In this document: positions 25,195 through 49,103 of the stretch, piece after piece
How positions within the stretch are numbered: the stretch's first letter is position 1
Layout: every line of letters starts with the position of its first letter
Assembly (NCBI RefSeq): GCF_003337735.1
Contig: NZ_QPJY01000005.1
Coordinates: 18,265 to 82,264, forward strand
DNA: 64,000 nucleotides
Origin: Thioalbus denitrificans
GTDB taxonomy: Bacteria; Pseudomonadota; Gammaproteobacteria; DSM-26407
Reading direction: 5' to 3'
The notes under the pieces: generated by a model
Database searches by the model: none
The model's input: the letters and a program-made list of their open reading frames with translations, nothing else
Told to the model about the DNA's origin: nothing
Translations under genes and position numbers: made by a program

Positions 25195-27168
<1,974 letters not shown>

Positions 27169-28432: not shown

Positions 28433-28489
28433 ACTCGACTCTCTCCTCTGCTGTGCCGGGGTGCGTGGTCCCCGTGCCGTCCCGATAAG

Positions 28490-30943
28490 CTAGGGCTGTC
28501 CGGCCCAGCCCCGGGCGGACGGGGCGGGTGCCTGCCCCGCGTCCGGCGGCGCCGCCGTCGCATCCGCCGGAAGGTCGGCGACGCCGATGAGCGGGCGCGA
28601 TGAGTTCCAGACCACCAGCAGGCTGCTGGTGGCCATGGCCAGGGCGGCGAACAGGGGATTGAGCACGCCGGTCACCGCCAGCGGAATCGCCACGGCGTTG
28701 TAGAGCAGGGCCCAGCCGATGTTCTGCCGGACCCGGCGCCGGGTGGTGCGGATCAGCTCGAAGGCGGTGAAGACCCGCTCCAGGCGGTCGCCGGGAATGA
28801 CGATGTCCGCCGCCTCCGCCGCGAGCGGGGTGGGGGTGCCGAAGGCGATGCCGAGGTCGGCGGCGGCCAGCGCCGGCGCGTCGTTGCTGCCGTCGCCGAC
28901 CATGACCACCCGGCCTTCCGCGCGGAGCTGCCGGATGACGGCCGCCTTCGCCTCCGGCGGGATGCCGGCGTGGAAGGCGTCCGCCCGCTCCTCGTACCCG
29001 CTCGGATGCTCCGCGCCCGTGAGCAGGATCACGCGTCCGTTCTCCCGCAGCCGGTCGATGACGGCCTCCCACTCCGGGCGCTGGCGGTCCCGGGTGACGA
29101 TGGCGCCCCGGGCGCGGCCCTCCCAGCCCACGTAGGAGATCACCCCCTCGCCCGGCAGGCGGGCGGCGGCCGCGGCGGCGAGGCGGGCGGGAATCTCCCA
29201 GCCGAGGGTGGCGTACAGCGCCCGGCCGCCCACCACCACCCGCCGCCCCTCCACCGAGGCCTCGGCACCCTTGCCGGGGTGGAGCCGGAGGTCGGTGGCG
29301 GCCAGGCTGGCGTCCAGCCCGGCGATGGCCGCCGCGATGGGGTGGCTGGAAAGGCGTTCCACGGCGGCGGCGCGGGCGGCCACCACCGGTGGTCCCAGGA
29401 CCTCCACCACGGACATCCTGCCGGTGGAGAGGGTGCCGGTCTTGTCCAGGGCGAAGATGTCGAACCGCGGCGGCTTGGCGAAGGTGTCGGCGCTGGTCAC
29501 GAGGATGCCGTGGCGCAGGGCCGCGCCGACGGCGGTGGCGGTGGTGAGGGGCACCGCCAGGCCGAAGGTGCAGGGACAGGAGACAATCAGCGTCGCCAGG
29601 CCGGCCAGCAGCGCCGCGCCCGGCTGCGCCCCCTCCAGCAGCAGCCAGCCGGAGACCAGCGCGGCCAGTGCGAGCACCGCCGGTACGAAGACCCGCGCGA
29701 TGCGATCGGCGAACCCCCGCACCCCCGCGGTCGAGCCCTGGACGCTCCAGAGCACCCGGGCCAGGTTCTCGACCTGGCTGGAGACCGCCGCGCCCACCTC
29801 GATCTCCAGTCCGCCCTCCACCAGCCGCGTTCCGCCGAGGACGGCCTCGCCCGGCCCCCGGGCCGCGGGAAACGGCTCGCCGGTCATCAGGGACTCGTCC
29901 ACCGCGCCCTGTCCCAGCACGACGCGGCCGTCCACCGGCACCGGCTCCCCGGCGCGGATGAGGACCCGGTCGCCGGGGCGCAGTTCGCCGAGGGGGAGGC
30001 TCCGGAGCCCGCCGTCCCGCCGGGTGCGGGCGGCCGGCGCCCAGGCCTCGGTGAGCCGGGCCAGCTCGCGGGTGGCGTCCGCCTTCGCGCCCTGCTCGAA
30101 GTAGCGGCCGGTGGTCACCACCGCCACGATCACGGCGGCCACGTCGAAATAGAGATCCAGCGAGCCGGTGAAGAGCCGGGCGGCGCTGTAGCCATAGGCG
30201 GCCAGGATGGCGATCGCCAGCAGGTTGTCCATGTTGAGCACCCGCGCCCGGAACCCGATCCAGGCGCCGCGCAGGATCGGCGCCCCCACCAGGAAGACCA
30301 GCAGCGTGGTGAGCACCAGCATGGCCCGCGGCGCGGCGGTGAAGGCGAGCCAGCCCACCGGCTCCAGGTCCCCCGGCGCCACGAGGCCGAGGTGGGTGGG
30401 GTAGAAGAACGCGAGGTAGAGCATCATCACCGTGGCCGCCAGCGCCGCCCCGGTGATGACCCGCAGCAGGGAGCGCGAGTCGTCGCTCTCCGCGGCGGGC
30501 CCCCCGGTGCGCAGGCTGGCCCGGTAGCCGGCGCGGCCGATCGCCCGGGGCAGGTCCGCCTCCCGGATGCGCCCGGGATCGTAGACGACCCGGGCGGTGG
30601 AGGTGGCGTAGCTCGAGCTGACCGAGTGGATGCCCTCGATGCCCGCCGCGCAGCGCTCGATCAGGATTTCGCAGGAGGAGCAGTGCATTCCCTCGATGCG
30701 GAGGAACGCCTCGGCGCCCTGGGGCGGCGGCGATGCGGCGTTGGCCGCGGGCCGCGCCGCCGCCGCGAGAATTGCGCTGCCGAAGGTGCGGAACACCGTG
30801 CTGCAGCCGTGGCAGCAGAAGCCGCGGCCGCCGTCCATGACGGGTGGCGCGGGAGTGGGCGCGCCGCACAGCGCGCAGCCCGCGGCGTCCGGCGCGCGGC
30901 CGTCCCGCGCCGGCGTGGCCGGGTCAGAGGGGGATGCAGACAT
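28490..30943 (-). CDS. Copper-type P1B ATPase (CcoI/FixI-like)
   Basis: The 817-residue ATPase has an N-terminal metal-binding segment (CALCGAP and CCHGC), a heavy-metal domain with MHCSSC, about eight membrane segments, the CPC motif (SCPCTFGLA), DKTGT phosphorylation site, HP segment and GDGSNDAP. The CCHGC head is typical of FixI/CcoI pumps that supply copper for heme-copper oxidase assembly rather than detoxification. It overlaps the end of ctaB by 20 bp and precedes SCO, so all act in maturation of the enzyme encoded upstream. N-terminal ATG at 30943. Confidence 0.9.
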   Translation of the reverse strand: MSASPSDPATPARDGRAPDAAGCALCGAPTPAPPVMDGGRGFCCHGCSTVFRTFGSAILAAAARPAANAASPPPQGAEAFLRIEGMHCSSCEILIERCAAGIEGIHSVSSSYATSTARVVYDPGRIREADLPRAIGRAGYRASLRTGGPAAESDDSRSLLRVITGAALAATVMMLYLAFFYPTHLGLVAPGDLEPVGWLAFTAAPRAMLVLTTLLVFLVGAPILRGAWIGFRARVLNMDNLLAIAILAAYGYSAARLFTGSLDLYFDVAAVIVAVVTTGRYFEQGAKADATRELARLTEAWAPAARTRRDGGLRSLPLGELRPGDRVLIRAGEPVPVDGRVVLGQGAVDESLMTGEPFPAARGPGEAVLGGTRLVEGGLEIEVGAAVSSQVENLARVLWSVQGSTAGVRGFADRIARVFVPAVLALAALVSGWLLLEGAQPGAALLAGLATLIVSCPCTFGLAVPLTTATAVGAALRHGILVTSADTFAKPPRFDIFALDKTGTLSTGRMSVVEVLGPPVVAARAAAVERLSSHPIAAAIAGLDASLAATDLRLHPGKGAEASVEGRRVVVGGRALYATLGWEIPARLAAAAAARLPGEGVISYVGWEGRARGAIVTRDRQRPEWEAVIDRLRENGRVILLTGAEHPSGYEERADAFHAGIPPEAKAAVIRQLRAEGRVVMVGDGSNDAPALAAADLGIAFGTPTPLAAEAADIVIPGDRLERVFTAFELIRTTRRRVRQNIGWALLYNAVAIPLAVTGVLNPLFAALAMATSSLLVVWNSSRPLIGVADLPADATAAPPDAGQAPAPSARGWAGQP

Positions 30944-31781
30944 CGAGCACCGTTCCGGCCAGCAGCAGGCTGAGCTGGGCGAGGGAGGCGAAGAAGCTCC
31001 TCATCGCGCACTTCGGCGAGGTGTCGCGCAGCAGCAGCAGGTTGCGGTGGATGAAATAGCCCCCGCCCGCCACGGCGCCGGCCAGGTAGATCCAGCCGAG
31101 CCCGTAGAAGAACGGCAGGATGGAGACGGCGACGAGGATCACCGTGTTGGCGAGGACCGCCCGGGCGGCGGTCCGGTTGCCGGCCACCACGGGCAGCATC
31201 GGAATGCCGGCCGCCGCGTAGTCCTGCCGCTGGGCGATGGCGAGGCTCCAGAAATGGGACGGGGTCCAGAAGAACAGGACCAGCGCCAGCTGCAGGGGCA
31301 CCGGCCCGATGGCGGGGTCGACGGCCGCGGCGCCGGCCAGCACGGCGAAGCTGCCGGAGGCGCCGCCGATGACGATGTTCAGCCAGGTGCGCCGCTTCAG
31401 CCACACCGTGTAGACCACGGCGTAGAAAAAGGCGCCGAGGAAGATGTGGAGGGCCGCCTGGGCGTTGAGCACGACGACCGCCACCGCCACGCTCGCCGCC
31501 AGCATGCCGGTGATCACCAGCAGCCAGGCGGCGCTCTTGTGGAAGGCGCCGGTCACGAAGGGCCGGTTGCGCGTGCGCTTCATGCGCGCATCCAGGTCGG
31601 TTTCGTAGTACTGGTTGAATGCGCCCGCGCTGGCGGCGGCCACCAGGACCGTGAGGGCCAGGATGGCGGTCTCCCACGCCGTCATCTGCCGGCCGGGGGT
31701 CGCCAGCATGGCGACCACCGCGGTCAGGGTCATGATGATGCCGATGCGCAGCTTGAACAGGTTGCCGAGTTGTCTGACCAT
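30924..31781 (-). CDS. ctaB: Protoheme IX farnesyltransferase, CtaB
   Basis: The 285-residue UbiA-family membrane enzyme carries the prenyl-diphosphate site NQYYETDLDARMKRTRNRP. It adds a farnesyl group to heme b, giving heme O for heme-copper oxidases. I take ATG 31781, which begins MVRQLGNLFKLRIG like other CtaB proteins. A longer form from 31904 adds about 40 residues that look unlike the family. It lies between oxidase subunit I and the Cu-ATPase. Confidence 0.88.
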   Translation of the reverse strand: MVRQLGNLFKLRIGIIMTLTAVVAMLATPGRQMTAWETAILALTVLVAAASAGAFNQYYETDLDARMKRTRNRPFVTGAFHKSAAWLLVITGMLAASVAVAVVVLNAQAALHIFLGAFFYAVVYTVWLKRRTWLNIVIGGASGSFAVLAGAAAVDPAIGPVPLQLALVLFFWTPSHFWSLAIAQRQDYAAAGIPMLPVVAGNRTAARAVLANTVILVAVSILPFFYGLGWIYLAGAVAGGGYFIHRNLLLLRDTSPKCAMRSFFASLAQLSLLLAGTVLDVCIPL

Positions 31782-31919
31782 GCCGCCTGGAACCTCCGCC
31801 TGGACCGATACCGCACTGCACCGGGTGGTGCGTACCCACTGCCTCCGGTCGCGGAGCGGGGCGGCCGGCACGGCCGCCCCGCTCGTTGCCCGGTTGAAGA
31901 GCATCAGCTGCCCGGTCCC

Positions 31920-33455
31920 TCAGGTCGCCGTTTCCGCGGCGAGATCCCCGAGGGGCGAGATCTCCCGGGCCCGCTGCAGGTTGACGAGGTAGACCACGAA
32001 GGCCGTGCTGAGGATGAGGCCGAAGATCAGGATCGCCACCCCGTAGCCCATCCAGCCGCCCTGGGCCCAGTCGGCGAAGCGACGCGGCATCCCCGCCGCG
32101 CCCCCGGCCTGGAAGGTGTAGAGCAGCCCCATGGCGCCGATGCTGTAGAGGGCGACGAAGCGGTTGCCCAGGGTGCGGTCGAGGCGGCGACCGGTGATTA
32201 CCGGGTAGTGGTGGTAGAAGACGCCCATCCACATCAGCGCCATGGCCGTCAGCACCGACATGGTGTGGCCGCTGACGGACATGGTCGCGTGCAGCTGGGC
32301 GTTCACCGCCACGTTGGCGATGACCATCGCGGTGACGCCGTCGAAGATGTAGATGACGAAGCCCATCAGGATCGCCATCAGCCCGGGCTCGGCCCGGATG
32401 CCGTGTTTCCAGATGGTGGCGAGGATGGTGAAGATGGAGAACGCCGCGCCGATGCCGGTGCCCCAGCTCATGATGTTGCCGTGGTAGGCCAGCGCCGAGG
32501 GCAGGGCGGGAAACATGTTGTAGAAGTGGTGGAAGAAGGAGGTGACGGAGGTGACCAGCAGGATCCACAGCGCCACGTTGGCCAGCTTGTCGCTGTAGAG
32601 CTTGCGGGTGCCGTCGGCGAGGTAGAGCGGGAGGGTGGCGTACACGGCGCTGATGACCATGATCGCCATCGCCTCCATGAGGTTGTGGGCGAAGATGTAG
32701 AAGGCGAACTGGAACACCACCGGCTCCGCGGCCCAGGCGATGGCCGACATGGGCAGGATCCCGTACAGGCCGAGCAGGATGGTGCCGGCGATGATCATCA
32801 GCGGCGTGCCGGTGATCAGCAGCACCAGGGCCGCCATGATCATGCCCACCATCCCCGGGTCCTTGATGGTGCGCCGGGAGAGCACCAGCTCCTCGTGCTC
32901 CCTGGAGAAGAAGGTCATGCGCAGGAGCTGCAGCGGGTAGAGGAAGATCACCGAGGTCAGGACCAGGGCGATGCCGGTGAAGCCGAGCACCACCAGCCCC
33001 ATGCTCCACTGTCCCGTCTGCACGCCGACGATGGGCAGGGGATACATCACCGCGTAGCTGATCTTGAGCCCGGAGAAGACGGCGGCGGTGAGCAGCAGCC
33101 CGCCGATGTTCATGCAGTAGTAGATCAGCGCCGGAAGTTTTCCCGAGGCCTTCTTTCCGAGGCAGCCGCCGGCCCGGTGCAGGCTCACGCCCACCATGAG
33201 CTGGAAGGTGAAGGGAAACGCCAGGGCCGCGCCGTGGGCGGTGATGGCGGTGTAGAAGACATTGGTGTTCAGCCCGAGCAGTTGGGCCACGGGCATCAGG
33301 ATCCCCAGCAGCGCGGCGGCGATCAGCCACACGAAGGAGGTCATGACCATCAGGCTCGGCCAGGCGTTGATGTCCTCGAGCCCGGTGCTCCTGTCGACGT
33401 TGAACATCCTGCCGAACAGCGGGGTGTTCTGGACGATTGCGGTTGCGTTCAACAT
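31920..33455 (-). CDS. Heme-copper oxidase subunit I, sNOR-like (NO reductase candidate)
   Basis: The 511-residue protein has about 12 membrane helices and heme-copper ligands: His74 (TAITAHG), His257, His309/His310 (FFHH), His389 and His397 (SVSGHTM). The helix VI motif is HNLME, so His257 is followed at +4 by Glu261. Oxidases have Tyr there (HPEVY), cross-linked to the copper-B His. NO reductases have Glu (HLWVE in NorB), which helps bind the non-heme iron. This fits the sNOR type, in which a CuA-bearing subunit II accompanies a NOR-like subunit I. An atypical terminal oxidase remains possible. Confidence 0.72.
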   Translation of the reverse strand: MLNATAIVQNTPLFGRMFNVDRSTGLEDINAWPSLMVMTSFVWLIAAALLGILMPVAQLLGLNTNVFYTAITAHGAALAFPFTFQLMVGVSLHRAGGCLGKKASGKLPALIYYCMNIGGLLLTAAVFSGLKISYAVMYPLPIVGVQTGQWSMGLVVLGFTGIALVLTSVIFLYPLQLLRMTFFSREHEELVLSRRTIKDPGMVGMIMAALVLLITGTPLMIIAGTILLGLYGILPMSAIAWAAEPVVFQFAFYIFAHNLMEAMAIMVISAVYATLPLYLADGTRKLYSDKLANVALWILLVTSVTSFFHHFYNMFPALPSALAYHGNIMSWGTGIGAAFSIFTILATIWKHGIRAEPGLMAILMGFVIYIFDGVTAMVIANVAVNAQLHATMSVSGHTMSVLTAMALMWMGVFYHHYPVITGRRLDRTLGNRFVALYSIGAMGLLYTFQAGGAAGMPRRFADWAQGGWMGYGVAILIFGLILSTAFVVYLVNLQRAREISPLGDLAAETAT

Positions 33456-33485
33456 TTTCTCTATCCTCGCTTTTCGGAAGCCCTG

Positions 33486-34055
33486 TCAGCCCCTGGCGTC
33501 GACGACGACCAGTTCATCCCGCATGCCGTGGTGCACGATGCCGCAGTACTCCAGGCAGCGGACCGTGTAGCGTCCCGGCTCGGTGAAGGTGTAAATCGTC
33601 GAGGCGGCCTGTTTCAGCCCGGGGAGCAGCTGCATGGTGAACAGGACTCTCCCGTCCGGGTGGTAGACCGAGAAGCTGTGCATGGTGTCCGCGCTCTTGG
33701 CGGAGAAGCGCACCGGCACTCCCGCCTCGATGGTCCGCTCCGATATGTCGTAGCTCCAGGAGCGCGCCGTGACGTCCACCTCCTGGATCGCCTGCCCGGA
33801 TTTGGCGGCGTGGGCGGTGGAGACCATCGGCATGTAGCTGATGCTCAGGATGTTGACCAGCAGGAAAACCGCGCCGGCGAACGCCAGCCAGGTCACCTCC
33901 ACCCGCGAGAACTTTTTCGGATGGGTGGCGCTGGGGGCGGAATCGACAAATGCCTTCTTGTAGACGATGGAGAGAAAGACAATCACGAAGGGGATCTGCA
34001 GCAGGAGCATTATCGTGAATGCCCCCCAGCCGGACTGGTACAGGAAATCAAGCAT
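33486..34055 (-). CDS. CuA-containing subunit II of the heme-copper enzyme
   Basis: The 189-residue protein has two membrane helices (about 12-32 and 54-75) and a periplasmic cupredoxin domain. The complete CuA set is present: His126, Cys167, Cys171, His175 and Met178 (CLEYCGIVHHGM). It would accept electrons from cytochrome c for subunit I. It is the first gene of an operon with subunit I, ctaB, Cu-ATPase and SCO. Upstream are a sigma-54-like element and a perfect FNR/ANR box. Confidence 0.87.
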   Translation of the reverse strand: MLDFLYQSGWGAFTIMLLLQIPFVIVFLSIVYKKAFVDSAPSATHPKKFSRVEVTWLAFAGAVFLLVNILSISYMPMVSTAHAAKSGQAIQEVDVTARSWSYDISERTIEAGVPVRFSAKSADTMHSFSVYHPDGRVLFTMQLLPGLKQAASTIYTFTEPGRYTVRCLEYCGIVHHGMRDELVVVDARG

Positions 34056-34779: not shown

Positions 34780-35157
34780 TCATACCGTCAGCGCCGCGTA
34801 GGCCGACGCGTCCAGCAGGTCGGCCAGGGCGTCCGGGTCGGCGGGTTCCAGCTCGATCAGCCAGCCCTCGTGATAGGGGGCGGCGTTGACCGTTCCGGGC
34901 GTCTCGGCGAGAGCGCCGTTGCTGGCCACCACGACGCCCGCCAGCGGCGCGATGAGGTCCGAGATAGCCTTGCTGGACTCCAGGGCGCCGAACGGCTCTC
35001 CGGCCGCCAGCCGTGCGCCTGCTTCCGGAAGATCCACGAACTCCAGCTCGCCCAGGGTTTCCTGGGCATGGTGGGTGACGCCGATCCGGCAGCGCTCCCC
35101 GATGCTCTCCACCCACAGATGCGCGGTGCTGTAGCGGCGGTCAGGGGGCGGGGACAT
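34780..35157 (-). CDS. GcvH/LbpA-like lipoyl carrier protein
   Basis: The 125-residue GcvH-fold protein has Lys63 in ALESSKAISDL as the predicted lipoylation site. It resembles glycine-cleavage H protein and the lipoate-binding proteins of sulfur metabolism. No glycine cleavage genes and no sHdr genes are nearby. Instead it closes an operon with OsmC, FadL and dihydrolipoamide dehydrogenase, overlapping the latter by 17 bp. Its dihydrolipoyl arm could therefore carry electrons from Lpd to OsmC. The start at 35157 is chosen on homology. Confidence 0.82.
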   Translation of the reverse strand: MSPPPDRRYSTAHLWVESIGERCRIGVTHHAQETLGELEFVDLPEAGARLAAGEPFGALESSKAISDLIAPLAGVVVASNGALAETPGTVNAAPYHEGWLIELEPADPDALADLLDASAYAALTV

Positions 35158-36586
35158 GATCCACCTCCAGGTCGTGGCGCAGGGGCGTGTGGTCGGCCTG
35201 GCCGAACAGGTCCTCGGCGGCCTCCTGGATGCCTTCGGACAGGGTCGGGTGGGCATGCACGGTCCCGGCCAGCTCCTCGACGCTGCCGCCGCGGCGGAGC
35301 ACCACCGCCGCCTCGTGCACCAGCTCGCTGGCGCAGGGGCCGACGATGTGGGCGCCGAGCAGGGTGCGGGTCCGGCGGTCGGCCACCAGCTTCACGAAGC
35401 CGCTGGTCTCGCCCATGGCCTGGGCGCGACCGAGGGTGCGCAGCTCGAAGCGGCTGCAGGCCACCGCCCCTCCCCGGGCTCGGGCTTCCGGCTCGGTCAG
35501 TCCCACGCAGCCCACCTCGGGCTGGGTGAAGACGGCCAGCGGCACGTGGTCCGCGGTGTAGGTGCGGCCCCCGCCCCGCAGCATGTGCTCCACGGCCACC
35601 CGGGCCTGGGCCGAGGCGGCATGGGCCAGCATGGCGCCGCCGGTGACGTCGCCCGCCGCATAGATGCCGGGCACCGCGGTGCGCATCCAGGAGTCCACGG
35701 CAATCTCCCCGCGTGGCCCCGGTTCGAGTCCCAGCCCGGGGAGCAGGTCGCCGGTGTTGGGGACGCGGCCCGTGCAGACCAGGATGCGCTCCGCCCGCCC
35801 CAGCTCCGTTTCGCCGTGGCAGGCCCGCAGGGTGCCGCCTTCCTCTTCCACCCGGTCGATGCCGCGGCCACCGAGGAAGCGGATGCGACGCCGCTTCAGC
35901 TCCCGGGCGATGAGCCGCGACACGTCGGGGTCGAGTCCGGGCAGGGGCGTCCCGGCACGTCCGGCCAGGGTCACCTCCACGCCCAGGGCGGCGAAAATGA
36001 AGGCGAACTCGCAGGCGATCACGCCGCCGCCGACGATGAGCAGGGAGGCGGGCAGGTCACGCCAGCCCAGTACCTCGTCGCTGGTGCAGACGCGGTCGCC
36101 GTCGAGGGGGATGCCGCCCGGGACATGGGGCCGGGATCCGGTGCACAGGAGCAGGTGGTCGACCCGGATACGGCGGCCGTCGTCGAAGCGCAGGGCGGGA
36201 CCGCGCTCGCGCTCCGGCCGGGCCCGGGCCGGGATGAGCTCGATACCGCGGTCGCCGAACAGGCCGTGGATGCCCTTGGCGAGGCCACCGGTGAGGCGGG
36301 AGATGCCCGCCGCCATCTCCGGCCAGCGGGGCGTGGCCGCACCCTCCAGCGCGATGCCGTAGCGGGCCGCGTCGCGCAGCCGGTCGAGCAGGTGGCCGGT
36401 GGTGGCGAGGCGCTTGGTGGGGATGCAGCCGCGGTGCAGGCAGGTGCCGCCGAGCCCCGCGGCCTCGGCGAGGGTGACCCGGGCGCCGAGGGCGGCAGCC
36501 CGGAGAGCCGCCACGTAGCCCGCCGGACCGCCGCCGATGATGCCGATGTGGGGGCGCTGCCCCCGGTGATCCTGGAACGATGTCAT
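35141..36586 (-). CDS. lpdA: Dihydrolipoyl dehydrogenase
   Basis: The 481-residue FAD disulfide reductase has GIIGGGPAGYVAA (FAD), the redox pair in GGTCLHRGCIP, an NAD site GGGVIACEFA, a second FAD motif GIYAAGDV and the C-terminal His-Glu in HAHPTLSE. It re-oxidises or reduces protein-bound lipoyl groups with NAD(H). Sequence is complete. It sits between FadL and the lipoyl carrier rather than beside a 2-oxoacid dehydrogenase, so a dedicated partner is likely. Start ATG 36586 has GGAGG 9 bases upstream. Confidence 0.9.
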   Translation of the reverse strand: MTSFQDHRGQRPHIGIIGGGPAGYVAALRAAALGARVTLAEAAGLGGTCLHRGCIPTKRLATTGHLLDRLRDAARYGIALEGAATPRWPEMAAGISRLTGGLAKGIHGLFGDRGIELIPARARPERERGPALRFDDGRRIRVDHLLLCTGSRPHVPGGIPLDGDRVCTSDEVLGWRDLPASLLIVGGGVIACEFAFIFAALGVEVTLAGRAGTPLPGLDPDVSRLIARELKRRRIRFLGGRGIDRVEEEGGTLRACHGETELGRAERILVCTGRVPNTGDLLPGLGLEPGPRGEIAVDSWMRTAVPGIYAAGDVTGGAMLAHAASAQARVAVEHMLRGGGRTYTADHVPLAVFTQPEVGCVGLTEPEARARGGAVACSRFELRTLGRAQAMGETSGFVKLVADRRTRTLLGAHIVGPCASELVHEAAVVLRRGGSVEELAGTVHAHPTLSEGIQEAAEDLFGQADHTPLRHDLEVDHVPAP

Positions 36587-36605
36587 CAATGCTTGCCTCC
36601 TTGGT

Positions 36606-37817
36606 TCAGAAGCGCCAGGTGAGAGCCGCGCCGAGCTGCCAGGCGCCCGCCTCCACCTCGGTGGCGCCGATGGCCTCTTCGTTCTTCAGCGCCACGCCGG
36701 CATGGGCGTCGAGGGTCAGTCCGGCGTTGATGTCCCAGCCCAGCCCAAGGGTCACCTGGTCCTCCCAGATCACCTCGGCGTTGGTGGCCTGGACGTACTG
36801 GACCAGGGCCGGGTTGAGCGGCACCGTGCCGCCACCGAGCCACAGGGAGTCGATGTCGCCGACCGCGGAGCCCACGTCGTCGCGGATGGGACTGTCGGCA
36901 TGGCTGTAGCCGATGCGCCAGCGCAGGGGACCGCGGCCGAGCTGGGCCCCGATCGCGGCGATGAGCTGGTTCTTGTAGAGGTCGCTGTAGGCCTCGGCGC
37001 TCTCCCAGTCCTTCCAGACCAGGTCCGCGCCCAGCAGCAGGCGCCCGCCCAGCAGGCTGTCCATCGCGATGCCGAGCCCCACTTCCCGGGGCTGCTCGAA
37101 GGTGGGGCTGTGGTAGCTCGATGCCCCGTACTGGACCATGTTCTCGTACTCGATGGACAGCGGAGTGCGGTAGTAGCCGCCCAGGGTCAGTCCGCCGGCG
37201 GTGTAGGTGGCGCCGAGTGTGCCGCGGATGCCGAAGTTGCTGGTGGAGGCAGTATTGCCGTTGAGGCCGGCCTGTCCCAGCCCCATGGCCACCGTGGCGG
37301 CGGCTCCGAGGCTGAGGCGGTCGGTGATGCGCCGGCTCAGGGCCGCGTTGGCGCCGAACACCAGAATTTCCGCCAGGGGATCCAGGCTGCCCGCGATGCC
37401 GCGGAAGTCGGAGCCGACCCCGGCGATGACGCTCAGGCCGAGCCCCAGGGTGGTGTCCGGCCCCAGCGGTTGGCTGATGGCCACGTTGGGCACCAGATAG
37501 GGACCGGCCCCGGAGTCGCCCGACCAGGCGCTGCCGGTGGTGCTGCCGTCGTGGCGGGCCTCCACGCGGGGGGTGTAGAAGGTGGCGCCGAACATGAACC
37601 GGGTACCGTCCAGTTGCCCCAGGGTGGCGGGGTTGCCGAACACGGCCGAACCCACATCCTGGGGCCGGGCGACGCCCACGCCGCCCATGCCGCCGGCGGC
37701 GGGCATCATGGTGAGGTTGAGGTCGGTGCCGTAGTTGGCGGCGCCGACCCAGGCCGGAAGGGTGAGCCCGGCCGCCGCGAGAGCGGCGGCCAGGGGGGTT
37801 GCACGAAATATCCGCAT
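36606..37817 (-). CDS. FadL/OmpP1/TodX-family outer membrane protein
   Basis: The 403-residue precursor has a signal peptide (about 1-27, WVGAA), an N-terminal hatch region rich in Met/Gly (about 28-55), alternating beta strands and a C-terminal aromatic residue (LTWRF), as in outer-membrane barrels. FadL-type porins import long-chain fatty acids and other hydrophobic molecules. It lies between osmC and lpdA, suggesting that an imported lipid, perhaps peroxidised, is the substrate of the operon. Start 37817 follows GGAG. Confidence 0.85.
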   Translation of the reverse strand: MRIFRATPLAAALAAAGLTLPAWVGAANYGTDLNLTMMPAAGGMGGVGVARPQDVGSAVFGNPATLGQLDGTRFMFGATFYTPRVEARHDGSTTGSAWSGDSGAGPYLVPNVAISQPLGPDTTLGLGLSVIAGVGSDFRGIAGSLDPLAEILVFGANAALSRRITDRLSLGAAATVAMGLGQAGLNGNTASTSNFGIRGTLGATYTAGGLTLGGYYRTPLSIEYENMVQYGASSYHSPTFEQPREVGLGIAMDSLLGGRLLLGADLVWKDWESAEAYSDLYKNQLIAAIGAQLGRGPLRWRIGYSHADSPIRDDVGSAVGDIDSLWLGGGTVPLNPALVQYVQATNAEVIWEDQVTLGLGWDINAGLTLDAHAGVALKNEEAIGATEVEAGAWQLGAALTWRF

Positions 37818-37833
37818 CGGGGTGTCTCCGGGC

Positions 37834-38379
37834 TCAGGCGGCGCTGGTCTGCAGGCTGCGCAGCTGCCGGCCGTTGACACTTGCCGTCCCGCTGACGGGG
37901 ATGGCGCGGCTGAGGATGTCCAGCACCGGGCAGTGGCTCTCCACCGTTTCGATGAGCCGGGCCAGGGTCTCCTCGTCGGCCTGGCTCTCGATGCGGGTGT
38001 CGAAGGTGATGCGCTTGTAGCCGGGGGGCACCTCGGCGTCGAGGCCGAAAAGACCCTTGAGGTCGAGGTAGCCGCGCGCGCTCACCTCCACCGAGGTCAG
38101 CTCGACACCCATCACCGAGGCGTAGGCCGAGTACATGATCTCCTGGCAGGTGCCGAGGGCGGCGAGCACCAGCTCCACCGGGTTGGGGGCCGAGTCCTGG
38201 CCGCCCAGCTCCGGCGGCTCGTCGATGGTGAAGGAGGGGAATTCGCGTATCTGGACGCGGCAGCGGACATCCTCCTCGAGCACGCTGCTGGCGCGGAAAA
38301 CCACGTTCGACTGGCTGGGGTTGTTCTGGATGTTCCCGATGGTCTTGAGCAGCGCGGCCCGGACATTTTCCTGGGACAT
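37834..38379 (-). CDS. osmC: OsmC/Ohr-family peroxidase
   Basis: The 181-residue protein keeps both catalytic cysteines of the OsmC/Ohr family, Cys78 in ALGTCQE and Cys150 in ESHCPVLD. Family members reduce organic hydroperoxides (OsmC also H2O2) and are re-reduced by lipoylated protein plus Lpd. Exactly these partners are encoded downstream. GAGGAGG precedes the ATG at 38379. It is first in the four-gene operon. Confidence 0.88.
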   Translation of the reverse strand: MSQENVRAALLKTIGNIQNNPSQSNVVFRASSVLEEDVRCRVQIREFPSFTIDEPPELGGQDSAPNPVELVLAALGTCQEIMYSAYASVMGVELTSVEVSARGYLDLKGLFGLDAEVPPGYKRITFDTRIESQADEETLARLIETVESHCPVLDILSRAIPVSGTASVNGRQLRSLQTSAA

Positions 38380-38502: not shown

Positions 38503-39171
38503 CTACGGTGGGGACTCCGTAGAACTACAGGGTTCCGGGGCCGGCGCGGCTGCCGCGCCGGCCCCGGCGGCGAGGAGCAGGGTGGCCAGCCCGGCCACCG
38601 AGCGCACCTCGAGCTTGCGCAGGATACTGGCCCGGTGGGCCTCCACGGTGCGCGGGCTGAGCGCGAAGGCGCGCGCCACCTGCTTGTTGGACTCGCCCCG
38701 GGCGAGGTGGTGCGCCACCTCCGTCTCCCGCGGGGTGAGCCGGGCCAGGCGCAGCGCCGCCCCGGCCTCGGCCCGCTGCCGTCTCCAGCGCTCCGCGTCC
38801 CGCTCCAGGGCCTCGCGGATGCGCGCGAGCAGGACGTGGTTGCGGAACGGCTTCTCGATGAAGTCCAGCGCGCCCCGGCGCATCATCTCCACCGCCATGG
38901 CGATGTCGCCGTGGCCGGAGACGACGATGACGGGCAGGCCGGGATCCCGTTCGGCCAGGGCCTGCTGCAGTTCCAGGCCGTCCATGCCGGGCAGGCAGAC
39001 GTCGGTGACCAGGCAGGCGGGGCCGGCGGGTGTGTAGGCTTCAAGGAAGGCGAGGGCGGAGTCGAACTCCCGCGCCGGCAGGTGGACCGAGCGCGCCAGC
39101 ACGGCGATGGCCTCGCGGATGGCGGGATCGTCGTCCACCACGTACACGGTCCCGGCGGGGGCGGAGGTCAT
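38503..39171 (-). CDS. FixJ/NarL-type response regulator
   Basis: The 222-residue regulator has a receiver domain (about 8-125; acidic DDD, phospho-Asp in VTDVCLPGMDG, Lys in EKPF) and a LuxR-type helix-turn-helix (about 145-205; LTPRETEVAHHLARGESNK). An Ala-rich tail follows. It overlaps the histidine kinase gene by ATGA and is the last gene of the fhcD-fhcC-kinase-regulator run. The response is likely tied to C1 or redox state. TodS/TodT- and FixL/FixJ-like pairs are its relatives. Confidence 0.9.
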   Translation of the reverse strand: MTSAPAGTVYVVDDDPAIREAIAVLARSVHLPAREFDSALAFLEAYTPAGPACLVTDVCLPGMDGLELQQALAERDPGLPVIVVSGHGDIAMAVEMMRRGALDFIEKPFRNHVLLARIREALERDAERWRRQRAEAGAALRLARLTPRETEVAHHLARGESNKQVARAFALSPRTVEAHRASILRKLEVRSVAGLATLLLAAGAGAAAAPAPEPCSSTESPP

Positions 39172-40733
39172 GGGCCGGCCACCGGCAGGGTGAAGCGGAA
39201 GCGGGTCTCCCCGTCCTCCACGGTGCAGGCGATGCGCCCGCCGTGGTCCTCCACGATGGTGCGGCTGATGGACAGCCCCAGGCCGAGACCGCCGCTGCGG
39301 GTGGTGAAGAAGGGGGTGAACAGCCGGGTGCAGTGCTGCGGGCTGATGCCGCAGCCATTGTCACAGACCTGGAAGGCGATGGTCGCCCCGTCCTCGAGCG
39401 CCGCCTCCAGGTTGATGCGGCGCTCGCCGGCGGGGACCCGGGCCAGGGCCTGGATGGCGTTGGTGATGAGGTTGATCAGCACCTGCTCGATCTGCACCCG
39501 GTCGGCGCGTACCGGCGGTAGGTCGGGCGTGACGGAGCTGTGCAGGATCACGCCGTGGTGGCGCAGCTCCGCGGCGGTGAAATGCAGCACGTTGTCGACG
39601 ATGACCTGCGGCGGGGTGGCCGCCGGCCGCGGGGCGCGCTTGCGCACGAAGTCGCGCAGCCGGCCGATGATGGTCGCGGCGCGGCCCGACTGTTCCACCA
39701 CGCGCTCCAGCAGGTTCCGCACCTCGCCGTCGGCGCCGGGCAGCGCGGCGGCCGATTCCGCGTAGCTGGAGATGGCGCACAGGGGCTGGCTCAGTTCGTG
39801 GGCCAGCCCCGAGGCCAGTTCGCTCAGGGTGCTCAGCCGGCAGACGTGCGCCAGCTCGGCCTGCTGCTGGCGCAGCTTGGCCTCGGCACGCTTGCGCTGG
39901 TCGATGTCCCGGGTGATGGCCAGCAGGGCGTCGATATGCCCCTCGCCGTCGCGCAGCGGCGTGGCGTGGGTCTCGAGCCAGCGGCGCCGGCCGCCGAGGC
40001 CCGTCACCTCGAAGGCCAGGGTGGCGCGCTCGCCGGCGAAGACCCGCCGGGTGAGGGCCCGGTAGGCCGCGTGATAATCGGGGACCAGGAAATCGTAGAC
40101 GGTGCGGCCCACCACCTGCCCGGAGGAGACGGCGTCGAGCAGGGCGCGGCCGGCCGGGTTGATCTCCAGGATGACGCCCTGCCGGTCGTGCAGCTTCACG
40201 CACTCGGGCTCGGACTCGATGATGGTCCGCAGGCGGTTGCGCTGCTCCTCCAGCTGCCGCGTCATCCACTTGCGCTCGGTGATGTCGCGGGTGATGGCCA
40301 GCAGTCCCGTCACGGCACCGCCGGGGGCGGCGCGCAGGGGCACGGCGTGGGTCTCCAGCCAGCGCCGCCGGCCGCGGAAGGTGAGCAGCTCGAACTCCAT
40401 GGTGCCGGGCTCGCCCCTGAACACCGCCTCGGTGAGGGCCCGGTAGGCGGCGTGGTGTTCGGGGGCGATGACGCCGTAGACGGAGCGGCCGACGATGCGT
40501 CCCGGACGGCTGGCCTCCAGCAGCGCCAGCCCGGCGGCGTTCATCCGCTCGACGATGCCCTCCCGCGATTGCAGCTTGACGCACTCCGGGGCGGCCTCGA
40601 ACAGGGTCCGGAACAACAGGTCGTCGCCCCGGGCGCCACGCCGCCGCGCCTGCCGCCGCAGGCCCAGCCAGGCGGCGCCGCCGCCCGCGGCGAGCCCGGC
40701 GGCGAGTGCGCTGATGAGAGCGGCGTGGGTCAT
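39168..40733 (-). CDS. PAS-PAS sensor histidine kinase
   Basis: The 521-residue kinase has one N-terminal membrane segment (about 5-24), two near-duplicate PAS/PAC modules (about 45-160 and 165-280; both with a FEL/FEV-type F-alpha pattern and RRRWLETHA), HisKA with the phospho-His in GLAHELSQPL, and an HATPase domain (CDNGCGIS, GLGLGLSIS). It is FixL/TodS-like without a visible heme-binding signature. It starts 6 bp after fhcC, so it is co-transcribed with fhcDC. Confidence 0.9.
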   Translation of the reverse strand: MTHAALISALAAGLAAGGGAAWLGLRRQARRRGARGDDLLFRTLFEAAPECVKLQSREGIVERMNAAGLALLEASRPGRIVGRSVYGVIAPEHHAAYRALTEAVFRGEPGTMEFELLTFRGRRRWLETHAVPLRAAPGGAVTGLLAITRDITERKWMTRQLEEQRNRLRTIIESEPECVKLHDRQGVILEINPAGRALLDAVSSGQVVGRTVYDFLVPDYHAAYRALTRRVFAGERATLAFEVTGLGGRRRWLETHATPLRDGEGHIDALLAITRDIDQRKRAEAKLRQQQAELAHVCRLSTLSELASGLAHELSQPLCAISSYAESAAALPGADGEVRNLLERVVEQSGRAATIIGRLRDFVRKRAPRPAATPPQVIVDNVLHFTAAELRHHGVILHSSVTPDLPPVRADRVQIEQVLINLITNAIQALARVPAGERRINLEAALEDGATIAFQVCDNGCGISPQHCTRLFTPFFTTRSGGLGLGLSISRTIVEDHGGRIACTVEDGETRFRFTLPVAGP

Positions 40734-40739
40734 CGGTGC

Positions 40740-41552
40740 TCAGTCCGGCGCGAAGAGCTCTCCCCTGCCGTCCGTGGCCAGGTCGCCCACCCAGCGCTGC
40801 AGCGGGTCTCCCCGCAGCCGTTCCGCCCAGGCCGGCTGGTGGCGGGCCAGCACCGGGATGAGCAGCTCGAGAAAGCCCGGACGCCAGGCGCCGGTGGCGT
40901 TGAAGGTGGGCGGCAGCCCTTGCGCCGGTGTGCCCAGCAGCAGCGTTCCCCGGCGCATGCCGGTGCCGGCCAGCGCGCCGGCCCGGCCCAGCACCGCCAC
41001 GGTCCCGGCGATGATCCGCGCCGCGCAGCACTCCCCGGCGTCGCCGTCCACCAGCAGCAGGCCGCGGCGCATCCGCTCCCCGGCGCGGGCGCCGGCGTTG
41101 CCGGCCACGTGCAGCACCCCGCCGGTCATGCCGCGCCGCTCCCCGGCGCGGGGGGCGCCGGGACGCTCGCCGGCATCGCCGTGGACGCGGATCTCCCCGC
41201 CGGCCATGGCGCTGCCGGTGAAGGGCCCGCTGCTGCCGCGGATCTCCAGCACCCCGCCGCGCAGCCCCTCGCCGGCGTACCAGCCCACGTCCCCCTCCAC
41301 CAGCACCCGGCCGCCGTCGAGTCCCGCCGCCACGCCGTCGAGGCGGGGATCGCCGCCGAGGATGCGCAGCTCGGCCGGGTCGCCGGGGCGCACGCGGAAC
41401 AGCTCGCCGAGGGCCACCGGCGTCCGGCCGCAGGGCAGCGCCAGCCGTTCGATGGCCCCCGCGCCGAGCCCGGCGAGCCGGTCCGGGCGGAGGCCGGAGA
41501 GATCCACCCGGCCGGGGAGTGGCTGCCTCAGCTCCAGGGTCAGGGCGCTCAT
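40740..41552 (-). CDS. fhcC: Formyltransferase/hydrolase complex subunit C, FhcC
   Basis: The 270-residue protein is a right-handed beta-helix of the FwdC/GltB C-terminal type, with repeating Gly-rich turns such as GDAGERPGAPRAGERRGMTGG. FhcC is a structural subunit that binds FhcD and FhcA in the Fhc complex. It overlaps fhcD by ATGA and is followed by the kinase gene. Length is typical of methylotroph FhcC. Confidence 0.92.
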   Translation of the reverse strand: MSALTLELRQPLPGRVDLSGLRPDRLAGLGAGAIERLALPCGRTPVALGELFRVRPGDPAELRILGGDPRLDGVAAGLDGGRVLVEGDVGWYAGEGLRGGVLEIRGSSGPFTGSAMAGGEIRVHGDAGERPGAPRAGERRGMTGGVLHVAGNAGARAGERMRRGLLLVDGDAGECCAARIIAGTVAVLGRAGALAGTGMRRGTLLLGTPAQGLPPTFNATGAWRPGFLELLIPVLARHQPAWAERLRGDPLQRWVGDLATDGRGELFAPD

Positions 41553-42457
41553 GCCAGCACCTCCCGCAGGGGGTAGTGGAACTGGCCGAGCCGGCCGCCG
41601 TAATTGCCCGCCGAGATGCGGCGCACCCCGCTCTCCGGGCCGCCGGCGCAGGCCGCCCCGATGCCGGCGCGCAGGGCGCCGCGCACGTCGGCGTCGGTCA
41701 GGCCGTTGACCACGATCTCCAGCACCGCCCGGATCTCCGGCGCCAGGCGCGATTCCACCAGTCCCCGCAGGGTGGGGCAGTAGGCGTCGTTGGTGGAGGC
41801 GGGCAGGGCCTTGTACTTGGAGCCCACCTTGGAGCCGGAGCGCACCACGCCGCCCGGGAAGGGGAGTACCACGTTGGGCAGCCGGCGCATGGCCGTCACG
41901 GCCGCCTCGCAGGCCGCGAGCGCCGCCTCCACCCCGGTGGCCAGCACCAGGAAGTTGCCGCCCCCCACCGCCTTCACCCGGGCGCTCAGCTCCGCGCACA
42001 GGAACTCCCCGTCCATCACCGGGATGCGCCAGTAGCGCCGCCCGTCGATGAGCTTGCTGGCCTGGTGGCCGTCGCCGAAGAAGCGCAGCCGCTGGCCGAG
42101 GGGGACCGGCTTGCCGCCCTCCGGCCCGGCTTCCATCCCGGCGAAGAGGGCGGTGGTGGGGCAGGTGAGCACGCACTGGCCGGCGCGCCGCTCGAGGTGC
42201 TTGGCCAGGTCGTCGCCCGACATGGCGAACAGCAGCACGCTCACGCCCGGGCGGCCGTCGGGTGTCTGCGCCGGCGCCAGCTCCGCCTCGATGCCCGCCT
42301 CCACGCCGCAGCCGATCACCGAGGTGGCGAACCCGGTCATGGTCTCGGCGGCGGTCCGGGCCCAGCGGGCGCTGATGGCGGTGATGATCACCCGCGTGGC
42401 CTGCATGCCGAAGGCCTCGGCGAAGGTGTCCTCGATCTCGACTCCGTTCAGGTGCAC
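41549..42457 (-). CDS. fhcD: Formylmethanofuran:H4MPT formyltransferase, FhcD
   Basis: The 302-residue Ftr homologue starts with HLNGVEIEDTFAEAF, the usual start of the family. It transfers the formyl group from formyl-H4MPT to methylofuran, the step before hydrolysis by FhcA. Motifs VIITAIS and CPTTALFAGM are present. The start codon is GTG at 42457 with GAGGAGCG just upstream. First gene of the fhcD-fhcC-kinase-regulator operon, divergent from the beta-RFAP synthase operon. Confidence 0.93.
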   Translation of the reverse strand: MHLNGVEIEDTFAEAFGMQATRVIITAISARWARTAAETMTGFATSVIGCGVEAGIEAELAPAQTPDGRPGVSVLLFAMSGDDLAKHLERRAGQCVLTCPTTALFAGMEAGPEGGKPVPLGQRLRFFGDGHQASKLIDGRRYWRIPVMDGEFLCAELSARVKAVGGGNFLVLATGVEAALAACEAAVTAMRRLPNVVLPFPGGVVRSGSKVGSKYKALPASTNDAYCPTLRGLVESRLAPEIRAVLEIVVNGLTDADVRGALRAGIGAACAGGPESGVRRISAGNYGGRLGQFHYPLREVLA

Positions 42458-42517
42458 GGCGCTCCTCTTCGGCTCCGGGGCGGCCGGCGGTATGCCGGCG
42501 CGGTGTCTTCTCCCGAT

Positions 42518-42533
42518 AGCAGGGTCCGTGCCA
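42518..42533 (-). promoter_or_regulatory. Sigma-54 promoter of the fhcDC operon
   Basis: The minus strand reads TGGCACG-GACC-CTGCT: complete -24, one mismatch in -12 and exact GG-N10-GC. Predicted start near 42507, leader about 50 nt. Confidence 0.7.
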
Positions 42534-42587
42534 GCGCCGCCGGGGCCATGGAACCGGGCGGATGGGGGCCGGACCGGGACGGTGGCG

Positions 42588-42619
42588 GTGTCCCGTGTGC
42601 GCAGGGACCGTGACAGTGT
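42588..42619. promoter_or_regulatory. Candidate activator site between divergent C1 promoters
   Basis: GTGTCCCG (42588-42595) and CGTGACAGTGT (to 42619) form an imperfect inverted pair. The 12-mer at 42608-42619 is the exact reverse complement of one near 18153 in the activator-gene palindrome. It lies about 105 bp from the predicted start sites of both divergent promoters. The rest of 42458-42742 shows no gene. Confidence 0.55.
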
Positions 42620-42689
42620 GCCCCAGCCCGGTGGCAGCGGTGCGCCGCACGGGGCCGGGGCGGCGTGGTGAATCCCGGGCTTGCGGCGG

Positions 42690-42705
42690 TTGGCATGGTC
42701 GTTGC
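42690..42705 (+). promoter_or_regulatory. Sigma-54 promoter of the right H4MPT operon
   Basis: TTGGCAT-GGTCG-TTGC has exact GG-N10-GC spacing and one mismatch in the -24 block. A start near 42717 makes the ATG at 42743 the preferred start of the beta-RFAP synthase gene. Confidence 0.65.
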
Positions 42706-42742
42706 GATGGTGGGCGGCATGGACAGCGGAGCGCATACAGAG

Positions 42743-43726
42743 ATGGCCGGCGGCGTCCGGGTGGAGACCCCCACCCGGCTGCACCTCGGCTTCGTGGACC
42801 TCAACGGCGGGCTGGGGCGCCGCTTCGGCAGCCTCGGCCTGACCATCGACGGCTACGCCACCCGGGTCCGGGTGGCGCCGGCGGCGCGGGACGGCGCCGA
42901 GGGGCCAGAGGCCGGGCGCGCCCTGGCCTATGCCCGGCGGGTGCTGGAGGCCGCCGGCCATGCCGGCGCGGTGCGGGTGCGGGTGGAGTCCACCGTGCCC
43001 GCCCACCAGGGGCTCGGGTCGGGCACCCAGCTCGGCCTGGCGGTGGGATGCGCGGTGGACCGGCTGTTCGGGCTCGGCCTCGGCACCCGTGGCGTGGCCC
43101 GGATCGCCGAGCGCGGCGCCCGCTCCGGCATCGGCATCGGCGCCTTCGACCAGGGCGGCTTCCTGGTGGACGGCGGGCGCGGCGCCGGTGACGGGCTGCC
43201 GCCGGTCATCGCCCGCCACCCGTTCCCGGAGGCATGGCGGGTGGTGCTGCTGCTGGACGCGCGCGGCGGCGGTCTGCACGGGCCGGCCGAGGCGGCGGCG
43301 TTCCGCGCGCTGCCCGAGTTCCCGGCGGAGCGGGCCGCCCATCTCGGCCGCCTGGTGCTGCTGGGAATCCTGCCGGCGCTGGCGGAAGCCGATTTCGAGC
43401 CCTTCGCCCGCGGGGTGGGCGAGCTGCAGCGCACGGTGGGCGATCACTTCGCCCCGGCCCAGGGCGGGCGCTTCACCAGCCCGGCGGTGGCCGCGGCGCT
43501 GGCCTGGTGCGAGGCCCGGGGGCTGTACGGCGTGGGCCAGAGCTCGTGGGGACCCACCGGCTTCGTGCTGGTGCCCGACGCCGATACCGGTTCGCGGCTG
43601 GTGGCGGGGCTGCGCCGGCGCTTCGGCGAGCTCGGCCCGCTGCGCTGCCGGCTGGTGGCGGCCCGCAACCACGGCGGCCGCATCGATGTGGGGGCGCGGC
43701 CGGAGCGGCTGCGCCGCGTGACCTGA
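42743..43726 (+). CDS. Beta-ribofuranosylaminobenzene 5'-phosphate synthase
   Basis: The 327-residue GHMP-kinase-fold protein (PTRLHLGFVDLNGG; LGSGTQLGLAVG) is beta-RFAP synthase (MptG-type). It condenses p-aminobenzoate with PRPP, the first committed step of the H4MPT arylamine chain; pabB, the PABA source, is downstream. Motif SSWGPTGF near the C terminus is typical. The frame is open from 42665, but the sigma-54 promoter lies inside that extension. First gene of the right operon. Confidence 0.9.
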   Translation: MAGGVRVETPTRLHLGFVDLNGGLGRRFGSLGLTIDGYATRVRVAPAARDGAEGPEAGRALAYARRVLEAAGHAGAVRVRVESTVPAHQGLGSGTQLGLAVGCAVDRLFGLGLGTRGVARIAERGARSGIGIGAFDQGGFLVDGGRGAGDGLPPVIARHPFPEAWRVVLLLDARGGGLHGPAEAAAFRALPEFPAERAAHLGRLVLLGILPALAEADFEPFARGVGELQRTVGDHFAPAQGGRFTSPAVAAALAWCEARGLYGVGQSSWGPTGFVLVPDADTGSRLVAGLRRRFGELGPLRCRLVAARNHGGRIDVGARPERLRRVT

Positions 43727-43743
43727 GAGGAGCTGCCACCCCG

Positions 43744-44640
43744 ATGGAGAAGCCGTACCTGCTGCACCTGCTGACCCCGGCGAAGAACCCGAGCCCGTTC
43801 GACGTGAACATGGCCCTCGACGCCGGCTGGAATCACTGCATTCCCTATACCGGGGTCGCCCTGGAGGAGGTGCCCGGGCTGGTGCAGGACGCCATCTTCT
43901 CCCGCGGCCCCAAGGGGGTGGCGCGCACGGGCCTGTTCCTGGGCGGCCGGGACGTGCACCTGGCCATGGAGATGCTGGAGCGGGCCCGGGCCGCCATGGT
44001 GCCGCCGTTCACTGTGGCCGTGCTGGCCGATCCCAGCGGCGCCTTCACCACCGCCGCGGCCATGGTGGCCTGCGCCGAGCGGGCGCTGCGGCAGCGCGGC
44101 CTGGACGGCCTGGCGGGACGGGAGGTGCGGGTGTTCGGCGGCACCGGCCCGGTGGGCACCAGCGTCGGGATCCTGGCGGCCGGGGCGGGGGCGCACGTGC
44201 GCCTGGTGAGCCACGAGGGCGCGGGTCCGGCGCAGGCCGCGGCGGCACGCTGCGAGCGCTACGGGGTGCGGCTGCAGGGCGGCGACGGGAGCGGCGCGGA
44301 CGCCATCGCGGCGCTGCTGGCGGATGCCGAGGTGGTCTTCAGCGCCGCCCGCGCGGGCGTGCAGGTGCTCGACTCCGGGCTGCTCGCCGGCGCCGGACGG
44401 CTGGAGGTGGCCTGTGACGTGAACGCGGTGCCGCCGGCGGGCATCGCCGGGGTGGCGGCCGGCGCCGACGGCGAGCCGCTGGCGGGCACCCCGCGCGGGG
44501 CCGCCGGCCTCGGCGCCCTGGCGGTGGGCAACATCAAGTACCGCACCCAGCAGGCGCTGCTGCAGCGCCTGCGTGGCGGGGAGGCGGTGGACCTCCACTT
44601 CGGGCAGGCGCTGGAGGTGGCCCGTGGGCTGTGCGACTGA
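43744..44640 (+). CDS. mtdB: Methylene-H4MPT dehydrogenase, MtdB
   Basis: The 298-residue enzyme oxidises methylene-H4MPT to methenyl-H4MPT with NAD(P)+. It starts with the family signature LLHLLTPAKNPSPFDVNMA, and has the dinucleotide site VFGGTGPVGTSVG and the late GALAVGNIKYRTQ. Length is typical. GAGGAG lies 10 bases before the ATG. It sits between beta-RFAP synthase and an ATP-grasp gene, which starts inside its last codons. Confidence 0.94.
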   Translation: MEKPYLLHLLTPAKNPSPFDVNMALDAGWNHCIPYTGVALEEVPGLVQDAIFSRGPKGVARTGLFLGGRDVHLAMEMLERARAAMVPPFTVAVLADPSGAFTTAAAMVACAERALRQRGLDGLAGREVRVFGGTGPVGTSVGILAAGAGAHVRLVSHEGAGPAQAAAARCERYGVRLQGGDGSGADAIAALLADAEVVFSAARAGVQVLDSGLLAGAGRLEVACDVNAVPPAGIAGVAAGADGEPLAGTPRGAAGLGALAVGNIKYRTQQALLQRLRGGEAVDLHFGQALEVARGLCD

Positions 44641-49089: not shown

Positions 49090-49103
49090 GGGTCCGGGTA
49101 AAC

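Follow-up and report, generated by a model that had tools for sequence, protein, structure and literature searches.

A recurring gene set for OsmC, a lipoyl carrier and dihydrolipoyl dehydrogenase, linked to methanethiol oxidase genes in Thioalbus denitrificans and other bacteria

Introduction

A three-protein relay of an OsmC-fold protein, a GcvH-type lipoyl carrier and dihydrolipoyl dehydrogenase (Lpd) is already known in principle from the hydrogenosome of Trichomonas vaginalis (Nyvltova 2016, as cited in PMC7946386 and PMC10332631), and lipoyl carriers are already known in sulfur metabolism from LbpA of the sHdr pathway (PMC6067878). Here we analysed a bacterial unit encoding the same three protein types in a 64,000-nucleotide stretch of the Thioalbus denitrificans genome (assembly GCF_003337735.1, contig NZ_QPJY01000005.1, positions 18,265 to 82,264), which we call the window and whose own coordinates are used below. 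As the citing papers describe it, the Trichomonas relay belongs to a eukaryotic organelle with an incomplete glycine decarboxylase, whereas the unit described here is operon-like and bacterial, has its own carrier clade, is tied to methanethiol oxidation and rhodanese, and encodes an OsmC with an altered active site.

Other described systems share further features with the unit. Like the lipoyl-dependent peroxidases of the Ohr/OsmC type (Cussiol 2010; PMC5962072), its OsmC has the OsmC fold, two conserved cysteines and an expected reduction by dihydrolipoyl groups and Lpd. Like LbpA (PMC6067878), its carrier is a GcvH-like lipoyl protein of methylated-sulfur degraders; unlike LbpA, it comes with its own Lpd and OsmC and lies on a separate branch of the carrier tree, and neither sHdr genes nor a dedicated lipoate ligase was seen with it. 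The unit adjoins the mtoX-SCO1-mauG cluster of methanethiol oxidation (PMC5739008, PMC6548844) in many genomes. The main texts of those two papers do not name OsmC, lipoyl terms are absent from that of PMC5739008, and our searches of the open-access literature for OsmC with methanethiol or mtoX turned up no account of the bacterial unit or its association with mtoX.

Gene content and recurrence of the unit

An earlier note on this DNA had proposed a four-gene peroxidase operon. All four open reading frames are real, and they are consecutive and co-directional on the minus strand as that note stated, preceded by a regulator pair that it missed:

37834-38379, minus strand: OsmC-fold redox protein of the OsmC_like_Se subfamily, 181 amino acids (PF02566, 72.9 bits; NF041052)
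36606-37817, minus strand, start ATG at 37817: outer-membrane channel of the OMPP1/FadL/TodX family with a signal-like N terminus (PF03349, 41.9 bits)
35141-36586, minus strand: Lpd (TIGR01350, 413.3 bits, cut-off 408.8)
34780-35157, minus strand: GcvH-like lipoyl carrier, 125 amino acids, predicted lipoyl-Lys63 (PF01597, 112.7 bits)
38503-39171, minus strand: FixJ-like response regulator (NF006900, 203.9 bits, below the cut-off of 255)
39168-40733, minus strand: FixL-like PAS sensor histidine kinase (PAS, HisKA and HATPase_c domains)

Because osmC and fadL are separated by 16 bp and fadL and lpd by 19 bp, and lpd overlaps the carrier gene by 17 bp, the four genes are likely to form an operon. 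A 158-amino-acid open reading frame at the carrier is a longer reading of the carrier's own frame. A promoter scan of the unit gave no match, and a terminator-like stem downstream of it (34449-34420) was not above shuffled expectation. The FixL/FixJ-type pair lies on the same strand and ends 123 bp upstream of osmC; a kinase-regulator pair adjoins osmC in several other loci, and the FixJ-like regulator probably controls the unit. Four genes proved too narrow a frame: what recurs in relatives is a wider unit of two-component system, osmC, lpd and carrier, with fadL, rhodanese and lipA as optional members, near mtoX.

Relatives of this OsmC turned up at 57 loci in one scan of 84,980 species genomes; the hosts are sulfur oxidisers, methylotrophs, Nitrospirota and Nitrospinota. 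Of the 57 loci, 20 have a lipoyl partner near osmC, which is either a GcvH-like carrier (11 loci: L035, L036, L039, L044, L046, L054, L055, L056, L064, L065 and L067) or an E2-type lipoyl domain N-terminally fused to Lpd (nine loci: L040, L060, L071, L073, L076, L078, L080, L083 and L088; the fused domain is confirmed by Pfam in L060 and L073). The partner is 3-7 kb from osmC, not adjacent to it, in L054 and L088. Carrier and fusion replace each other beside osmC: the order in Sedimenticola (L046) is kinase-regulator-osmC-fadL-carrier, and L040 keeps this order with the lipoyl-Lpd fusion in the carrier's position. Well-supported branches of the OsmC tree require at least four changes per partner type. 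By a rough estimate, about 0.5% of loci would have a GcvH-like gene no more than four genes from osmC by chance. Two Methylophilus loci (L064 and L065) have the lipoyl synthase gene lipA between carrier and lpd, with LipA of L064 scoring 434.8 bits against a cut-off of 310. The Methylophaga fusion shares 53% identity with a paralogue whose gene lies near one resembling pyruvate dehydrogenase E1; the lipoyl-Lpd fusion was therefore not invented for OsmC.

Gene order in Filomicrobium (L055) runs mtoX, SCO, mauG, kinase, regulator, osmC, lpd, carrier, rhodanese. Within Thiobacillus, this OsmC occurs in 7 of 56 genomes. The carrier adjoins osmC in all eight Thiobacillus loci examined, and Lpd is present in seven; rhodanese directly follows the carrier in six, a kinase-regulator pair precedes osmC in most, and mtoX lies within the examined stretch in five. 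One of them (L194) reads regulator pair, second carrier, osmC, lpd, carrier, rhodanese, FccB-like flavoprotein, fae-like gene, mauG, mtoX, the FccB and Fae labels having been assigned by eye.

The recurrence of the set, the exchange of its carrier type, its own carrier clade (below) and the inclusion of LipA give strong support to the view that OsmC, carrier and reductase act together as a recurring functional set. The neighbourhood search suggested in the earlier note bears out its grouping of the three proteins; its peroxidase assignment is not supported.

Link to methanethiol and methylated-sulfur metabolism

The presumed metabolic partner of the unit is the methanethiol oxidase MtoX, whose cluster lies about 10 kb from the osmC unit in the window:

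23660-25039, plus strand: methanethiol oxidase MtoX with a TCMSPYM motif and signal peptide (NF052453, 780.7 bits, cut-off 650)
25195-27168, plus strand: SCO1-MauG fusion, MtoX maturation (PF02630 and PF03150)
27128-27685, plus strand: TlpA-like thioredoxin of the mtoX cluster (open reading frame; neighbours in relatives)

The TlpA-like gene adjoins SCO-MauG in several relatives, and Methylophaga mto clusters also hold one (PMC6548844).

Across the 57 loci, mtoX lies within 10 kb of osmC in 15, and it is present elsewhere in the genome for 13 of 41 other loci tested. When 369 gammaproteobacterial genomes were compared, 14 had an OsmC match (E <= 1e-34); MtoX was found in 13 of these vs 21 of the 355 others (Fisher p 4e-14, shared ancestry not corrected).

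Neighbouring genes also point to sulfur. A rhodanese gene lies inside the unit in Methylophilus, Filomicrobium and six Thiobacillus loci, which fits because rhodanese, that of Thiobacillus A2 included, can use dihydrolipoate as its sulfane acceptor (Silver and Kelly 1976, as cited in PMC6067878). At L066, osmC is followed by the dimethylsulfone (DMSO2) monooxygenase gene sfnG (621.8 bits). In L041 and L042, mtoX is immediately preceded by genes of the FadL type, which makes a pore for small hydrophobic organosulfur compounds more plausible than the import of lipid hydroperoxides previously suggested for FadL. An OsmC-like protein of Rhodococcus MI2, which may or may not belong to this subfamily, is up 7-fold on an organic disulfide and is clustered with SQR and rhodanese genes (PMC5157978). 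An Lpd of Methylophaga thiooxydans (MDMS009_809) is up on dimethyl sulfide (DMS; PMC6548844); we did not use it as expression support for the unit, since three Lpd-type genes occur in that genome and the induced copy could be linked to pyruvate dehydrogenase, whose E2 is induced about equally.

The peroxidase proposal had drawn on the release of hydrogen peroxide (H2O2) by MtoX. This is disputed: earlier work reported H2O2 (PMC5739008), whereas a 2024 study of three Rhodobacteraceae MtoX enzymes saw them form sulfane sulfur but no H2O2 (PMC10936201). The catalytic cysteine of one tested type lies in TCQSPYM (PMC10936201), to which the window motif is near-identical. As the tested enzymes gave no H2O2, the argument from self-generated stress is weaker.

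The OsmC protein

The window OsmC passes the OsmC_like_Se model alone (NF041052, 99.1 bits, cut-off 95). It stays far below the SACOL1771 and OsmC peroxiredoxin models (27.9 bits against a cut-off of 166, and 21.3 against 86), and a Filomicrobium relative falls just under the NF041052 cut-off (93.3 bits). Both catalytic cysteines mentioned in the earlier note were found: C78 and C150 (the peroxidatic and resolving cysteines of the family) are each kept in 58 of 59 aligned rows. Unlike in Ohr/OsmC peroxidases, the catalytic Glu, located ten positions ahead of the peroxidatic Cys (Glu49 in Escherichia coli OsmC, Glu51 in Xylella Ohr), is replaced by Val68, with Val in 53 of the 59 rows, and no Arg aligns opposite E. 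coli OsmC Arg39. The subfamily has in addition an invariant Cys40 and Arg45; Arg158 is also conserved, and Arg45 or Arg158 might fill the catalytic-Arg site in space. The Xylella Ohr mutants R19A and E51A keep just residual dihydrolipoamide peroxidase activity (PMC5962072).

An AlphaFold2 model of the protein (mean predicted local distance difference test score 94.7) has the OsmC fold. Its best match in the Protein Data Bank is 2opl, an uncharacterised Geobacter OsmC-like protein (Z 16), with Ohr/OsmC structures ranking after it (Z about 11-13). Judged by its model scores, the window OsmC is not a model Ohr/OsmC peroxiredoxin; the annotation of this subfamily as peroxidase looks doubtful, and the OsmC of the unit is probably not a peroxidase.

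Separately, distant OsmC relatives in six genomes (G213, G056, G011, G184, G222 and G268) contain an in-frame TGA, possibly encoding selenocysteine, as the name OsmC_like_Se suggests.

The lipoyl carrier and Lpd

The carrier also exceeds TIGR00527 (120.9 bits, cut-off 115.85), a model of the GcvH fold and lipoyl-Lys motif, and Lys63, which the earlier note pointed out, lies in ESSKAISD. Lpd has the active-site CxxxxC (GGTCLHRGC), and its closest paralogue in its own genome (4.14 Mb, 21 contigs) is 38% identical or less.

A tree of 27 carriers separates those linked to OsmC from the GcvH proteins that serve glycine cleavage in the same genomes, with what we consider moderate support (88/84; 86% of bootstrap trees). 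The lipoyl lysine is retained in the OsmC-linked carriers, one extra copy excepted. That copy, a second carrier at L054 12232-12648, reads ELDGSLDAL in its place and is a possible non-lipoylated paralogue.

We looked for links of the carrier to glycine cleavage and to sHdr, and saw neither. Glycine cleavage was rejected because a complete gcvT-gcvH-gcvPA-gcvPB locus lies separately on contig C16 and the carrier stands apart from GcvH in the tree. A link to sHdr was rejected as well: no sHdr genes were found in the window, in the OsmC neighbourhoods or among the inspected HdrB-type loci of the genome (12 hits, those on contig C2 left out), which were Qmo, Lut, hydrogenase-associated and rubrerythrin-associated. 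Phylogeny and gene context thus indicate a GcvH-type lipoyl carrier that serves neither system. A third GcvH/LbpA-like carrier of the genome (L017 9056-9493, contig C7) lies beside polyhydroxyalkanoate synthase genes, followed by FadL-like genes, with no sHdr nearby; the window carrier is not close to it in the carrier tree.

Other genes in the window

Between the mtoX cluster and the unit lies a set of heme-copper genes, whose layout we take to be norSY/sNOR-like:

27725-34055, minus strand: CuA-type heme-copper oxidase or nitric-oxide-reductase-like set, comprising
33486-34055, minus strand: heme-copper subunit II
31920-33455, minus strand: heme-copper subunit I
30924-31904, minus strand: CyoE
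28490-30943, minus strand: Cu-ATPase
27725-28432, minus strand: SCO

In five Rhodocyclaceae-type loci (L071, L073, L076, L078 and L080), osmC-lipoylLpd and a FixLJ-like pair occur together with CyoE and a heme-copper enzyme of the norYS type; no mtoX was found in their genomes. On the other side of the unit, positions 41000-49100 of the window hold one-carbon (C1) genes linked to tetrahydromethanopterin (H4MPT), named by eye: formylmethanofuran dehydrogenase subunits and beta-RFAP synthase-like, MtdB-like and Fae proteins. Given these genes, the source organism is probably a methylotrophic gammaproteobacterium.

Proposed function and alternatives

Our best explanation, on which we are evenly divided between confidence and doubt, is that the unit encodes a dithiol relay driven by NADH and dedicated to methanethiol and methylated-sulfur catabolism. 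The lipoylation, direction of electron flow, substrate and regulation that we infer would be as follows. NADH-fed Lpd would reduce the lipoyl arm on carrier Lys63, and the dihydrolipoyl arm would then reduce the OsmC cysteines. OsmC would take sulfane sulfur (persulfide or polysulfide) or a methyl disulfide, for instance dimethyl disulfide, arising from methanethiol oxidation, giving back H2S or methanethiol. Where present, rhodanese would supply sulfane sulfur, LipA would make the lipoyl group and FadL would pass hydrophobic organosulfur compounds across the outer membrane; the FixL/FixJ-like pair would turn the unit on. It is more likely that the unit handles methanethiol sulfur than that it detoxifies lipid peroxides.

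A more specific and clearly more tentative proposal is that the unit encodes the NADH-dependent dimethyl disulfide reductase (EC 1.8.1.21) or, in a wider sense, a lipoyl-dependent reductase of organic disulfides or sulfane sulfur in methylated-sulfur degraders, built on an OsmC-fold enzyme shifted from peroxide to sulfur substrates. We hypothesize that it has the parts a dimethyl disulfide reductase would need. The likeness, namely the reduction of disulfides by methylated-sulfur degraders such as Thiobacillus, is one of functional analogy alone, with no sequence known to compare. EC 1.8.1.21 activity occurs in Thiobacillus and Hyphomicrobium, its gene being unidentified (PMC13039779).

Several points weigh against a dedicated relay of methylated-sulfur catabolism. 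MtoX is periplasmic or exported, whereas OsmC, carrier and Lpd appear to be cytoplasmic, and any link between them would then be indirect. In six Rhodocyclaceae-type loci, osmC-lipoylLpd is retained in genomes where no mtoX was found, and five of the six have a CuA, norYS-like heme-copper enzyme next to it. Nitrospirota have the OsmC without MtoX and without a lipoyl partner nearby, and the subfamily therefore has a wider role. Rhodanese occurs in just nine units and not in that of the window, and we found no biochemistry for this OsmC subfamily in the literature. Finally, the sole tested OsmC/H/L relay known, that of Trichomonas as described in PMC7946386, reduces peroxides. Of the Nitrospirota loci, L047-L053 and L075 pair OsmC with a shared upstream gene of about 500 residues that reads by eye as a GAF/NifA-type regulator; neither MtoX nor lipoyl genes accompany them.

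The Trichomonas precedent makes a bacterial peroxidase conceivable, reducing H2O2 or organic hydroperoxides from methanethiol and C1 oxidation as the earlier note envisaged, and the OsmC fold, the two conserved cysteines and the older report of H2O2 from MtoX agree with it. We nevertheless consider it unlikely: the catalytic Glu is exchanged for Val and no Arg aligns with the catalytic one, both being residues on which Ohr activity depends, rhodanese and sfnG neighbours indicate sulfur, and an MtoX with a near-identical motif gave no H2O2.

It is less probable still that the carrier works oxidatively, taking up sulfane sulfur or its electrons, with Lpd running toward NADH and feeding sulfur oxidation as proposed for sHdr-LbpA. 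LbpA is essential for growth on DMS in Hyphomicrobium, where Lpd is proposed to make NADH (PMC6067878), and rhodanese in the unit and Sox or fcc/SQR genes near some units would suit such a role, but sHdr was seen neither near units nor among the inspected HdrB-type loci (Qmo, Lut and hydrogenase-type), and the carrier does not group closely with the LbpA-like one on C7.

We see little prospect for a reactive-nitrogen function, in which the unit would reduce S-nitrosothiols or peroxynitrite alongside a nitric-oxide-reductase-like heme-copper enzyme. It draws on the five Rhodocyclaceae-type loci with osmC-lipoylLpd and a two-component pair beside norYS-like genes and on the similar CuA enzyme of the window (31920-34055); however, norYS-like genes were not seen within 10 kb in mtoX-linked loci, and rhodanese and MtoX would be left unexplained. 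Least credible is formaldehyde handling, with the dihydrolipoyl carrier binding formaldehyde as an S-hydroxymethyl adduct much as GcvH carries C1 units. C1 genes are indeed common near the unit, with H4MPT genes for the window and L046, a fae gene for Thiobacillus L194, dehydrogenases of formaldehyde and formate for Sulfuritalea L071, and fdh genes for L038 and L040, but the unit has no conserved dehydrogenase for such an adduct and C1 genes are expected beside mtoX anyway.

Significance

The carbon and sulfur cycles are connected to a major extent by methanethiol, DMS and dimethyl disulfide, and genes are missing for several of the steps that follow methanethiol oxidase. A conserved unit alongside mtoX in Gamma-, Beta- and Alphaproteobacteria provides named targets for these steps, and as a putative dithiol relay it offers a testable link to the orphan enzyme EC 1.8.1.21.

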